Assembly (NCBI GenBank): GCA_021161565.1
Contig: JAGHAK010000020.1
Span: 1 to 33,040, forward strand
Direction: 5' to 3'
DNA length: 33,040 bases
Source: Elusimicrobiota bacterium
Lineage (GTDB): Bacteria > CG03
A program made the position numbers and the translations under genes. This document shows, in pieces, positions 10,173 through 14,175 of the stretch. The notes beneath the pieces were generated by a model. The model did no database searches and had not been told where the DNA came from. It saw nothing but the letters and a program-made list of their open reading frames with translations. Positions within the stretch are counted from its first letter, which is position 1. Each line of letters begins with the position of its first letter.

Positions 10173-11249
10173 GTGAGAACGAACAAGTTTCTTGGAAAAG
10201 ATTGGATTGACGCGGAATTGGATTTCACAAAAGAGGAGTGGGAAACGCTGATTGAAGTCGGTCTCGAACTGAAAAAACGGCATGCGATGAATCAGGACCA
10301 GACTGAAATTTTGAAAGGAAAAACGCTTTTTACGATGTTTTTTAATCAGTCCCTTCGGACGAGAAGCACATTCGCCGCAGGCATTCAGCAGCTCGGAGGT
10401 TTTCATGTCGACCTCGAACCGGGAAAGACCTACACTCCCGCGCGGGAAGGTTTTGATATTCCGTATAAAACAGAGAGAATTGCAGATGTTTCGAGAATGC
10501 TCAACAGGGTGGGAGATGCGATAGCCATAAGGATGTATGGTCCGCCGGCTTACTGGATTTACGGATTTGCCAATTCCACAATCAAGGAATTCGCCCAGTA
10601 TGCCGAAATTCCGATAATAAATATGGAATGCGACAAGTATCATCCCACGCAGGCTCTCGCCGACCTGATTACGATAAAGGAGAAATTCGGCACATTCAAG
10701 GGAATCAATCTTACGATGTCGTGGGCGTATTCGGGTTCTATCGAAAAGCCACGGGCTGTGCCGCAGAGTGTGGTTCTCGCCGCCGCGAAAATGGGAATGA
10801 ATGTGACGCTCGCTCATCCTAAAGGTTTTGAACTCGACCCCGAAGTGATTGCGGCCTGCGAAAAGTTCTCCGCCGAAACTGACGGGTCTTTCAGAATTAC
10901 AAATGATTTCGACGAAGGTTTCAAAGGCGCGCATATTGTCTATCCCAAGTCATGGGGCTCCGTTTACTGTTTCAATTACACAGACAAAACAGGAAAAACC
11001 GTCAAGAAACAGGATTTGGAAAAGGCTGAGAAAGTCAACAACGAGAACAAAAACTGGAGAACGACAAAAAAGCAAATGGAACTCGTCGACAAGCATGGGA
11101 TTTATATGCACTGTCTTCCCGCAGACAGGGGCCAGGAAGTGGATGACGATGTTATTGACGGTGAGAGGTCTGTCGTGATTGACGAAGCGGAAAACCGTCT
11201 CCACGCCCACAAAGCGATTATGGCGATGATTATGGGCGGCAGACTATAA
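10173..11249 (+). CDS. Aspartate/ornithine carbamoyltransferase superfamily protein, YgeW-like (transcarbamylase A)
   Basis: 358 aa, GTG start after gaggagg; NQSLRTRST, HPTQALADL, TMSWAYSGSIEKPRAVPQS, VYPKSWGS, HCLPADRGQEVDDDV. Lacks the OTC SMG loop. Confidence 0.82.
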   Translation: MRTNKFLGKDWIDAELDFTKEEWETLIEVGLELKKRHAMNQDQTEILKGKTLFTMFFNQSLRTRSTFAAGIQQLGGFHVDLEPGKTYTPAREGFDIPYKTERIADVSRMLNRVGDAIAIRMYGPPAYWIYGFANSTIKEFAQYAEIPIINMECDKYHPTQALADLITIKEKFGTFKGINLTMSWAYSGSIEKPRAVPQSVVLAAAKMGMNVTLAHPKGFELDPEVIAACEKFSAETDGSFRITNDFDEGFKGAHIVYPKSWGSVYCFNYTDKTGKTVKKQDLEKAEKVNNENKNWRTTKKQMELVDKHGIYMHCLPADRGQEVDDDVIDGERSVVIDEAENRLHAHKAIMAMIMGGRL

Positions 11250-11272
11250 AATGCAAAAATCAAAAATCAAGA
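11250..11272. repeat. Short AT-rich intergenic repeat (aaaatgcaaaaatcaaaaatcaa type)
   Basis: AAATGCAAAAATCAAAAATCAAG; a related sequence occurs in reverse orientation near 48-92. Confidence 0.4.
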
Positions 11273-11291
11273 GGATAAAGAGGGGGATAAT

Positions 11292-12323
11292 ATGGCTAAG
11301 TCTGAACTTTTTGGAAAAGATTTAATCTGTTCCCAGGATTGGAGAAGGCCGGAACTCGACGAAATTCTGGAACTGGCGAAAAAGATGAAGGAAAAAAGAT
11401 TTTCGCCGGAATACACCAGCCTTCTAAAGGACAGAACATTTTTTATGTTTTTTTACAATCCTTCCGTGAGGACTCGTCAGAGTTTCGAATGCGCCGCAAC
11501 GGAACTCGGCGGCCACGCCCAGTTTCTTGAGCCCAAAACGATGAGATTGAAAACGGCCAAAAGCGCGGGCGAAACCACGGAAGACGCCGCCAAGGTTATG
11601 AGCAGATATGCTTGCGGGCTGGGAATCAGAATTCTCGAGGATAAAATTTCCGCATACGGTCAGGGCGACGCGCTTCTGCGCGAATACGCAAAATATGCGT
11701 CGATTCCCGTTGTCAGCATGGCTCACGACAAGTTTCATCCCTGTCAGGGTCTGGCCGACATAATGGGAATTGAGGAACATCTCGGCGAGGATTTGAAAGG
11801 CAAAAAAATTTTGATAACCTGGGCGCACGGGGCGCTTGCGAGAAGTTTATGCAGCGTGCAGGAAGCAGCTCTTTTGGCTTCGAGATACGGGATGGATGTG
11901 ACGATCGCTCATCCGGAAGGTTACGACCTTGACGCGGAAGTTATGGATGTTGTCGGAAAGAACTGCGCTGAAAACGGAGCGAAATTCGAAATTACCAACG
12001 ATGTGAAAGAAGGATACAGGGGGGCTCATGTTGTGTATTCCAGAAACTGGATGAGTCCGAATGCCTATCACGGCGGTGAATTCCACAAACAGGAAGAAAT
12101 AGAAAAGGCGCTTCGGTATACAGATTGGATTTGCGATGCCGAAAAAATGAAGCTTTCCGAAAACGCTCTTTTTACTCATCCTATGCCCATAGACAGAGGG
12201 CATGAGGTGACAGATGAAGTTGCTTCAGGTCCGCGCTCTATAATTTATGATGTTGCGGAAAACCGCCTTCATGTCCAGAAAGCGATAATGGCTCTGACAA
12301 TGAGCGAGAAATTGAATAAGTAA
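11292..12323 (+). CDS. Second carbamoyltransferase superfamily paralog with HPMP in place of HCLP (transcarbamylase B)
   Basis: 343 aa; NPSVRTRQS, HPCQGLADI, ITWAHGALARSLCSVQEAALLASRYGMDVTIAHPEGYDLD, THPMPIDRGHEVTDEV; co-linear with transcarbamylase A. Confidence 0.82.
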   Translation: MAKSELFGKDLICSQDWRRPELDEILELAKKMKEKRFSPEYTSLLKDRTFFMFFYNPSVRTRQSFECAATELGGHAQFLEPKTMRLKTAKSAGETTEDAAKVMSRYACGLGIRILEDKISAYGQGDALLREYAKYASIPVVSMAHDKFHPCQGLADIMGIEEHLGEDLKGKKILITWAHGALARSLCSVQEAALLASRYGMDVTIAHPEGYDLDAEVMDVVGKNCAENGAKFEITNDVKEGYRGAHVVYSRNWMSPNAYHGGEFHKQEEIEKALRYTDWICDAEKMKLSENALFTHPMPIDRGHEVTDEVASGPRSIIYDVAENRLHVQKAIMALTMSEKLNK

Positions 12324-12333
12324 GGGAGGAAAA

Positions 12334-13299
12334 ATGTCAAAAGTTGCTGTTGTTGCGGTCGGCGGTAATTCGCTGATAAAGGATAAAGAACATCAGGCGG
12401 TTCCCGACCAGTATATGGCTGCTGTCGAAACAATGAAGCACATCGCGACAATGATTCAGAGCGGCTGGGATGTTGTCGTTACCCATGGCAATGGTCCGCA
12501 GGTCGGTTTTATTCTTCTGAGAAGCGAAGCGGGGAAAAAAGTTTTCGGGCTTCACACTGTTCCGCTTGATTCCTGCGGCGCCGACACACAGGGAGCGATT
12601 GGATACAATTTCCAGCAGGCTCTTTCCAACGAATTCAGGCGCAGAGGGGTCAATAAATCGGTTGCCACTGTTGTCACGAGAGTTCTTGTTGACAAAGACG
12701 ATCCCGCATTTCAAAATCCGACAAAACCTATAGGGCCTTTTCTCGAAAAAGAAGAAGCGATGATGAGAAAGGAGAAAGAAGGTTGGAATGTGATGGAAGA
12801 CGCCGGTCGCGGCTGGCGCAGAGTCGTTCCCTCTCCGGACCCGAAGTCCATACTTGAAGAAAAAGCAATTGAAACTCTTGTCAGGGGAGGTTTTGTCGTT
12901 ATAGCGGTCGGCGGCGGCGGCATTCCCGTGATAGAGGTCAAGAAAAAAAATATCATAAAGGGCTGCGCAGCGGTGATTGACAAGGATTTTGCTTCATCGC
13001 TTCTCGCCTCCAACATAAATGCGGATTTGTTTTTGATATCCACGGCGGTCGAGAAAGTTTGTCTCAATTTCGGCTCGCCTGATGAGAAAAAAATTGATAA
13101 AATGACTCTTTCGGAAGCGAAGAAATATAAGGAAGAAGGGCATTTTAAAAAGGGCAGTATGCTTCCCAAGATTGAAGCGGTGATAAGGTTCCTTGAAAAA
13201 GGCGGTAAGCAGGCGCTTATTACCTGCCCGGAGAAGATAGAAGAAGCCCTTGCCGGAAAAACGGGAACCTGGATTGTTTCCGAAAATTTGCGGGCGTAG
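12334..13299 (+). CDS. arcC: Carbamate kinase
   Basis: 321 aa; VAVGGNSL, THGNGPQVG, DTQGAIGY, AVGGGGIPV, IDKDFASSLLA, FKKGSMLPKIEA. Confidence 0.92.
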   Translation: MSKVAVVAVGGNSLIKDKEHQAVPDQYMAAVETMKHIATMIQSGWDVVVTHGNGPQVGFILLRSEAGKKVFGLHTVPLDSCGADTQGAIGYNFQQALSNEFRRRGVNKSVATVVTRVLVDKDDPAFQNPTKPIGPFLEKEEAMMRKEKEGWNVMEDAGRGWRRVVPSPDPKSILEEKAIETLVRGGFVVIAVGGGGIPVIEVKKKNIIKGCAAVIDKDFASSLLASNINADLFLISTAVEKVCLNFGSPDEKKIDKMTLSEAKKYKEEGHFKKGSMLPKIEAVIRFLEKGGKQALITCPEKIEEALAGKTGTWIVSENLRA

Positions 13300-13362
13300 T
13301 TCAGTTGGCTAGAACGCAACCTTGCCAAGGTTGAGGTCGTGGGTTCGAACCCCATCGCCCGC
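13290..13362 (+). tRNA. tRNA-Gly(GCC)
   Basis: Cloverleaf: GCGGGCG/CGCCCGC acceptor, anticodon arm CAACC-TTGCCAA-GGTTG, T arm GTGGG-TTCGAAC-CCCAT region. No encoded CCA. Confidence 0.95.
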
Positions 13363-13368
13363 TTTATT
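13347..13368 (+). repeat. 22-bp direct repeat, copy 1 (3' end of tRNA-Gly plus 6 nt)
   Basis: GAACCCCATCGCCCGCTTTATT, identical to 13568-13589. Confidence 0.95.
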
Positions 13369-13567
13369 GCTTTGCAGGGTTCGAAGCCGACCCGAGCGCA
13401 TCCTTAACGGATGAAAAGCGAAGCGTCAGCGAGGGCGGCAGGCTTCGGCGGGTGCCGGTCGCGATGAATAAAGAGCGACGACCGAGCCCAAAGGGCGAGG
13501 GAAAGGCACGGGCGCGAGGCGGTGAGCGCCCCGGGTCCGAAGGACAGTGGCTACGACGGGGGAGAAG
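13369..13567. other. GC-rich insert between the duplicated tRNA-Gly 3' ends; possible structured RNA or small integrated element
   Basis: 199 bp between perfect 22-bp direct repeats. Local hairpins: CATCC-TTAAC-GGATG (13399-13413), GCCC-AAA-GGGC (13486-13496), GGGCGC...GCGCCC (13510-13531), GTCC-GAA-GGAC (13535-13545). No convincing ORF. Confidence 0.6.
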
Positions 13568-13589
13568 GAACCCCATCGCCCGCTTTATT
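13568..13589 (+). repeat. 22-bp direct repeat, copy 2
   Basis: GAACCCCATCGCCCGCTTTATT, identical to 13347-13368. Confidence 0.95.
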
Positions 13590-13590
13590 A

Positions 13591-13637
13591 AGCGAATAGA
13601 GAATAGCGAATAGAGGCGAGAGATTAGAGATTAGAGG
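13591..13637. repeat. Degenerate short tandem repeat
   Basis: AGCGAATAGAGAATAGCGAATAGAGGCGAGAGATTAGAGATTAGAGG. Confidence 0.5.
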
Positions 13638-13659
13638 TTGGGAGAAAACTGGAGGTAAA

Positions 13660-14175
13660 ATGTTTCTTCAGGATGTGGTTTCGGAAAAGACGATAATTAC
13701 TGATTTGGAAGTCGCAGACAAAGAGGAAGTTTTGAAGAAGATGACAGAAGTTCTCGATTCCGCCGGCGTTCTTTCCGACAGGAATAAGTTTTATGATTCC
13801 GTTATAGAACGAGAAAGCCTCGAATCCACCGCAATCGGCGATGGTATCGCGATTCCGCACGCCAAAGGCGATTTTGTGAAAAAGATTTTTTGCTGTTTCG
13901 CCCGGCTAAAAAACGCCGTTGATTTTAATTCCCTCGACGGGAATCCCGTAAAAATGGTTTTTCTTGTCGCCGCGCCCGCGGATATGAACAGAGAATACAT
14001 ACAAATCGTCGCCAAAGCCGCGCGACTCTTGAAGAGCGGCGTTATGAGAGAACATCTTCACAACGCGGCAACGCCGAAAGATGTTCTCGCGATTTTCAGC
14101 GATTTCGATAAAATTCTCCAGCAGTCCCTTTCCGTCAAAACAAAGGAAGGCAGGGTGATTCACAAAGATATGTGA
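13660..14175 (+). CDS. PTS EIIA (fructose/nitrogen-type, PtsN-like) domain protein
   Basis: 171 aa; ESLESTAIGDGIAIPHAKGDFV matches the EIIA phospho-histidine region; RBS ggaggt. Confidence 0.85.
   Translation: MFLQDVVSEKTIITDLEVADKEEVLKKMTEVLDSAGVLSDRNKFYDSVIERESLESTAIGDGIAIPHAKGDFVKKIFCCFARLKNAVDFNSLDGNPVKMVFLVAAPADMNREYIQIVAKAARLLKSGVMREHLHNAATPKDVLAIFSDFDKILQQSLSVKTKEGRVIHKDM

Follow-up and report, generated by a model that had tools for sequence, protein, structure and literature searches.

A family of small repeats with tRNA-matched ends directly behind tRNA genes of several little-known bacterial phyla

The 178-bp repeats of Escherichia coli tyrT (tyrV), known with rtT RNA (RttR, RF00391), are units that lie in tandem behind a tRNA gene. 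They were reportedly described around 1978, and their RNA product around 1991. Duplicated tRNA 3' ends also mark sites of integration by tyrosine recombinases; there, the element itself carries the att repeat, whose sequence should not vary between insertions, and integration makes no inverted copy of the T-arm. As a general rule, in the account given by PMC4383910, the att repeats of tRNA-targeting elements start within the tRNA and end just past it. Here we analyzed a 33,040-nucleotide stretch of Elusimicrobiota DNA (the window) with an insert behind a tRNA-Gly gene. This insert is one member of a repeat family whose copies immediately follow tRNA genes of many kinds, in several bacterial phyla about which little is known. 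A search of the open-access literature found no description of the family, which is thus apparently undescribed there. Its closest known case is the E. coli tyrT repeats, which share its layout but not its sequence.

The tRNA-Gly(GCC) gene is intact and lies at 13290-13363, as predicted by both ARAGORN and Rfam, on the plus strand like all of the insert features below. An earlier note on this DNA had described a perfect 22-nt repeat, GAACCCCATCGCCCGCTTTATT, with a spacing of 221 nt, around a GC-rich insert. We confirmed that the copies are exact, at 13347-13368 and 13568-13589, and that the enclosed DNA has a GC content of 64.7%, compared to 46.1% for the window; no third site was found in the window even allowing up to three mismatches, with a chance expectation of 0. 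Each copy spans tRNA position 57 to the 3' end (position 73) plus about 5 nt, and the left edge of the first copy, at 56/57, is constant in the family. The earlier note had overlooked an inverted tRNA-derived piece, GGGTTCGAA, at 13377-13385, which is the reverse complement of the T-arm sequence TTCGAACCC at 13344-13352. It had also overlooked that the insert core recurs in the same genome and that the sequence of the direct repeat varies from tRNA to tRNA. The window unit thus consists of the tRNA, a linker, the inverted T-arm, a 182-nt core, and a direct copy from tRNA position 57.

The linker between tRNA and inverted arm (13364-13376) is 12 to 13 nt in the window unit and 9 to 67 nt in the family. 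The tRNA-tailored arm at 13377-13385 is the 5' strand of a predicted helix, P1, which it would form with the first 7 to 8 nt of the second repeat copy. Adjoining it is the 5' strand of P2, GCCGACCC, with a bulged A (13386-13393), whose predicted partner is GGGCGGC at 13433-13439. The 5' strand of P3 is CTTC (13443-13446), and its partner GAAG (13564-13567) lies within a conserved GAGAAG (13562-13567) that adjoins the 3' copy in nearly all units. A second structured repeat, module B (GGTGCCGGTCGCGATGAATAAAGAGCGACGACC...GCGCCCC), is nested in the P3/P4 region at 13449-13533. We rejected a protein-coding insert (a 70-amino-acid minus-strand open reading frame at 13364-13576), as core lengths of 181, 182, 183, 189, and 190 nt within one genome disrupt every reading frame. 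Rfam identified nothing in the window insert besides the tRNA and a subthreshold IMES-1 match (15.2 bits, cutoff 81). There was no match of the insert to viral, phage, or plasmid sequences, and viral contigs queried with the neighboring PTS protein returned nothing. On its upstream side, the tRNA overlaps the last codons of a carbamate-kinase-like open reading frame (12334-13299) by 10 nt, placing the stop codon within the tRNA 5' end; therefore, both may share a transcript. Two adjacent aspartate/ornithine carbamoyltransferase genes, with an amino-acid-kinase-family gene after them, were noted at 10173-12323.

The earlier note had suggested looking for the same insert at other tRNAs, and it is present there, in its own genome and in others. 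Using the 341 bases around the insert as a query, we found nine matches in the own genome (G000; 1.52 Mb, 169 contigs, 95% complete). Reading of these matches and a tRNA census placed units behind five tRNAs: Gly-GCC, Gly-CCC, Ala-GGC, Leu-CAA, and Leu-GAG. Identity among the five main cores is 94 to 98%, and their ends differ, being specific to each tRNA. A variant also follows Ser-TGA, and a remnant follows a tRNA whose anticodon is CAT. Approximately 7 of the 34 tRNAs carry the element, and most others have nothing like it; behind the empty ones, the census showed no inverted T-arm close by. Contigs C127/C169 and C144 break near copies. An assembly artifact is nevertheless unlikely, because tailored units recur at orthologous tRNAs of independent metagenome-assembled genomes (MAGs). 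The breaks call for caution when these MAGs are assembled and their tRNAs annotated. Separately, about 30 nt behind tRNA-Pro(TGG) of G000 (L082) lies the 3' half of another proline-like tRNA (GGCGGTTCAAGTCCGCCCACCCCGACCA).

Both ends of the unit track the host tRNA. Among 26 units behind tRNAs, 9.62 of the 10 nt of the 5' arm match positions T54-63 of its own tRNA in reverse complement, compared to a mean of 8.41 and a maximum of 9.0 when tRNAs were permuted among units. The 3' copy is identical to its own tRNA at 14.6 of 15 positions (21 units), compared to a permuted mean of 9.7 and maximum of 11.5. The observed agreement was reached by 0 of 10,000 permutations for either end, and even position 57, which is A or G, is tracked by both. 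When we aligned 22 units, identity between copy 1 and copy 2 was 0 to 5% at positions 54-56 and 91 to 100% at 57-73; beyond the tRNA, it was about 80% over the next three bases and averaged about 40% from 4 nt on. Thus, the left edge has a constant position in the T-loop, and near-identity extends approximately to the mature tRNA end. At some sites and in some arrays the repeat extends further into the flank, as at Leu-CAA in G005 and at Gly-TCC in G003, where it is 37 nt long and includes the arm. Ordinary integrating elements do not tailor their ends to the particular tRNA in this way.

To define the family, we searched 85,462 species genomes with a degenerate core pattern, which gave 36 loci. 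The tRNA-linked loci belong to Elusimicrobia, Endomicrobiales, Candidatus Omnitrophica, Candidatus Desantisbacteria, Candidatus Aerophobetes, Patescibacteria, and other MAGs. The remaining loci (Proteobacteria, Actinobacteria, and others) have neither a tRNA nor a T-arm-complementary arm and were discarded as chance matches. With a covariance model, R1, we detected the element in 8 of the 16 genomes from the window's phylum and in 10 of 290 genomes of a broad sample, a patchy distribution. We examined 46 R1 matches, which include the model-building sequences, themselves chosen by core and complementary ends and not by tRNA. All 46 are in sense orientation, and 45 of them follow a tRNA, the 3' end of a tRNA, or a masked stretch: 35 start less than 80 nt from a tRNA 3' end, 5 are further array units behind a tRNA, 4 are located at the start of a contig, with a tRNA 3' end visible there, and 1 has its upstream side masked. 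The one exception (L062) has no recognizable tRNA. The hosts include Gly, Ala, Leu, Ser, Thr, Met, Lys, and Asp tRNAs, and the units, about 95 to 210 nt and noncoding, also form tandem arrays of two to three. Their common layout is an intact tRNA, a linker, the inverse complement of its own T-arm, a conserved core, GAGAAG, and the direct copy from position 57 to the 3' end.

Other cores occur in similar positions. A second core subfamily, subfamily B (GAAGNCCGCAGCG..GCGCGAGTTTG), has the same inverted T-arm and was seen at L007 (Ser-TGA), L148 (Tyr), L103 (Val), and L070 (Tyr), and a Lys tRNA in G053 has yet another core in the same layout. At tRNA-Phe of G005 (L142), a different insert of about 76 nt carries a degenerate copy of the tRNA 3' end (TTCCCTGCCGGCATGTTA) and no inverted arm; the orthologous site in G003 (L141) is clean, which resembles a similar process with another core.

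The core is predicted to be a three-way-junction RNA with compensatory changes. We first aligned 17 short units with MAFFT, without fitting them to a structure, and this alignment supports four helices: P1 (arm with 3' copy), P2 (GCCR-A-CCY/RGGYGGC, with the bulged A), P3 (CTTC/GAAG), and P4, a small hairpin that often has a GNRA loop on an apparent tandem G.A and, in other units, Watson-Crick pairs instead. In this alignment, 91% of cells pair, and double changes occur in 30 cells, compared to 8.4 after shuffling. Among 43 distinct model-aligned units, an alignment that was fitted to the structure and so leans toward it, there are 131 double-change cells, compared to 27 after shuffling (reached in 0 of 500 shuffles) and at most 38 in slid controls; P2 is 98.6% paired, with 6 of its 7 pairs changed on both sides. 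As covariation in P1 partly restates the tailoring of the ends, P2 and P3 provide the independent support. The folding energy of the window copy is moderately low (z of -1.6 sense and -0.9 antisense), and its minimum-energy structure does not fully coincide with the family fold; fold energy alone is indecisive.

Module B is an optional nested part of the unit. In G003 and G005, it is also found alone at sites other than tRNA 3' ends, and three genomes have a copy immediately upstream of tRNA-Arg. In the latter (L030, L019, and L029, in G003, G004, and G005), it runs into the 5' end of tRNA-Arg(TCG), with GCCCCGG common to both. At L024, it stands alone and adjoins an integrase gene. At L010 (G000 C10:4079-4405), a copy between ATGCGATACCGAG repeats precedes tRNA-Ala, with no recognizable tRNA in front of it.

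Comparison of orthologous tRNAs among relatives revealed empty sites, which the earlier note had proposed to look for. Leu-CAA is filled in G005 and empty in G003, the G005 unit being an odd one that consists of module B and the right end and lacks the arm. Gly-CCC is filled in G004 and not in G003, G005, or G006. Thr-TGT is filled in G004 and G006 and has a scar (AAAGGAATCAAGCC or close to it) in G003 and G005. Leu-GAG is filled in G000, G003, and G005 and empty in G004. At Gly-TCC, G003 exceeds G005 by one complete unit, which has a 37-nt repeat at its boundaries. This turnover is compatible with gain, with loss through the repeats, and with array growth; its direction is not proven, and since most absences are explicable by loss via the direct repeats, no insertion event is proven recent. 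Loss is favored for the Thr-TGT and Gly-TCC scars, and the near-identical cores could stem from gene conversion instead of spread. The element is old enough to have a covarying structure across several phyla and dynamic enough to differ between sister species.

We searched for proteins that might move the element. Reverse transcriptase (PF00078) had no matches in G000 and G003-G006, genomes that are 90 to 97% complete, and Y1 (RAYT) transposase (PF01797) had none in G000 and one to four in related genomes. As both are absent from G000, we rejected them as mobilizers. The integrase family PF00589 has four matches in G000 and is present in every control genome. None is in the insert and none of the four adjoins a copy, though two are on contig C127 together with the Leu-GAG copy, about 14 kb away from it. 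On C127:1160-3078, two integrase-family open reading frames adjoin a tRNA gene, possibly as an integrated element, with no relation to the insert seen.

The best explanation, to which we assign a probability of roughly 0.6, is that these units form a family of small, noncoding, RNA-structured, selfish, nonautonomous insertion elements that occupy tRNA 3' flanks and are tolerated via the tailored arm. Such an element would insert at the 56/57 boundary of the T-loop, duplicating the 3' part of the tRNA, and would be mobilized in trans by separate machinery. The inverted arm would be written at insertion or else repaired afterward by selection or conversion, and recombination between the direct repeats would let the element grow, shrink, or be lost. 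Transcribed as a tRNA trailer, it would pair its tailored arm with the second 3' half (P1), which would keep the duplicate from rivaling the genuine 3' half as partner of the tRNA 5' half. We propose that this sequestering makes the insertion tolerable and therefore obliges the arm to match each tRNA. A bolder version, tentative and on balance doubtful, would place the family in a new class of mobile RNA elements of bacteria. Insertion would generate T-arm copies in both direct and inverted orientation, so that each new element would be fitted to its tRNA and silent to tRNA folding, and the E. coli tyrT repeats would be a relict member.

The earlier note had proposed a tyrosine-recombinase scar or satellite, with attL and attR around a deleted island. 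Its picture of a small, protein-less, repeated element of tRNA 3' ends, nonautonomous and tRNA-targeting, stands; the att/integrase origin does not. The pattern that the note would have taken as refutation, an insert with neither empty sites nor other copies, was not what we observed. The repeat does extend from the T-loop to just beyond the tRNA, like tRNA-targeting att repeats. Nevertheless, it varies with the host at each tRNA, and an inverted T-arm copy, which the att reading leaves unexplained, is present; on these grounds the reading fails. Tandem arrays, a core conserved across phyla, the lack of island remnants and of viral, phage, or plasmid matches, and the occurrence of PF00589 in all control genomes alike also count against it. 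A scar or satellite is thus very improbable, and the tRNA-specific repeats exclude att integration as a sufficient or sole explanation.

A host-functional trailer RNA, kept for regulating tRNA maturation or dosage or for giving rise to a small RNA, as has been suggested for E. coli rtT/RttR, is an unlikely but more substantial rival. Pairing of the arm in P1 or with copy 1 could then be a two-state switch, with either 3' half completing the tRNA. The compensatory changes that P2, P3, and P4 show across phyla would be in keeping with such a role, as would the near-identity of the tRNA part of copy 2 although the linker differs, the Leu-GAG element at the same locus in G000, G003, and G005, and the same layout at E. 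coli tyrT. However, the element is patchy across genomes and across the tRNAs of one genome, orthologous tRNAs of sister species lack it, and a dedicated regulator of one tRNA is not expected behind such different tRNAs alike. Rather improbable is a by-product of replication template switching at tRNA hairpins, without dedicated machinery: fold-back synthesis would give the inverted arm, a jump would copy an existing core, a jump back would duplicate the tRNA 3' end, and gene conversion would then homogenize the cores. This accounts for one inverted and one direct copy from the local tRNA, and the lack of PF00078 and PF01797 in G000, the junction microhomologies TCGAA and GA, the other cores in the same layout (subfamily B at Ser, Tyr, and Val; Lys in G053), and the armless Phe insert of G005 all suit it. 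Yet the 56/57 boundary is always the same, the GAGAAG junction is nearly always present, and a by-product would not need compensatory evolution in its core.

A selfish element of this kind would coexist unusually with an essential RNA gene, in that the ends of the insertion copy and counter-pair the sequence of its host gene. Two questions become testable: which machinery writes target-specific ends, and whether a competing 3' half influences tRNA maturation.

Compared to known systems, the family shares features with several. Like REP/BIME/MITE-type palindromic repeats, it is small, noncoding, structured, multicopy, and nonautonomous, but it is fixed behind tRNA genes in a fixed orientation, its ends are tailored to the target, and the host genome G000 has no Y1 (RAYT) gene. 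It differs from retroelement or SINE-like sequences in that G000 has no reverse transcriptase. Islander-type tRNA-targeting integrative elements, as PMC4383910 presents them, similarly have a repeat from inside the tRNA to its 3' end and leave the tRNA intact. In contrast to those islands, the family has neither integrase nor cargo, and its units measure only about 0.1 to 0.2 kb; the repeat changes from one tRNA to the next, and there is an additional, inverted copy. The E. coli tyrT repeats involve one tRNA only and have a different core sequence: model R1 did not match them at an E value of ≤1, and the RF00391 covariance model had no match at E ≤ 1 in window positions 13200-13800 and none in G000 and 385 other genomes. 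Their layout, as we read it from the sequence, is nevertheless that of the family: tRNA-Tyr, linker, GGGGAAGGAT, core, and AATCCTTCCCCCACCACCATCACTTTC, the unit ending in this copy of the tRNA 3' part. Moreover, GGGGAAGGAT, before the core, is the reverse complement of the tRNA sequence ATCCTTCCCC, which runs onward from the T-arm, at 10 of 10 positions, a complementary arm as in the family, covering approximately positions 59-68 where the family arm covers 54-63. We know of no published description of this arm in the E. coli tyrT units. The comparison links a single-locus oddity to a family spread over many tRNAs in several candidate phyla.
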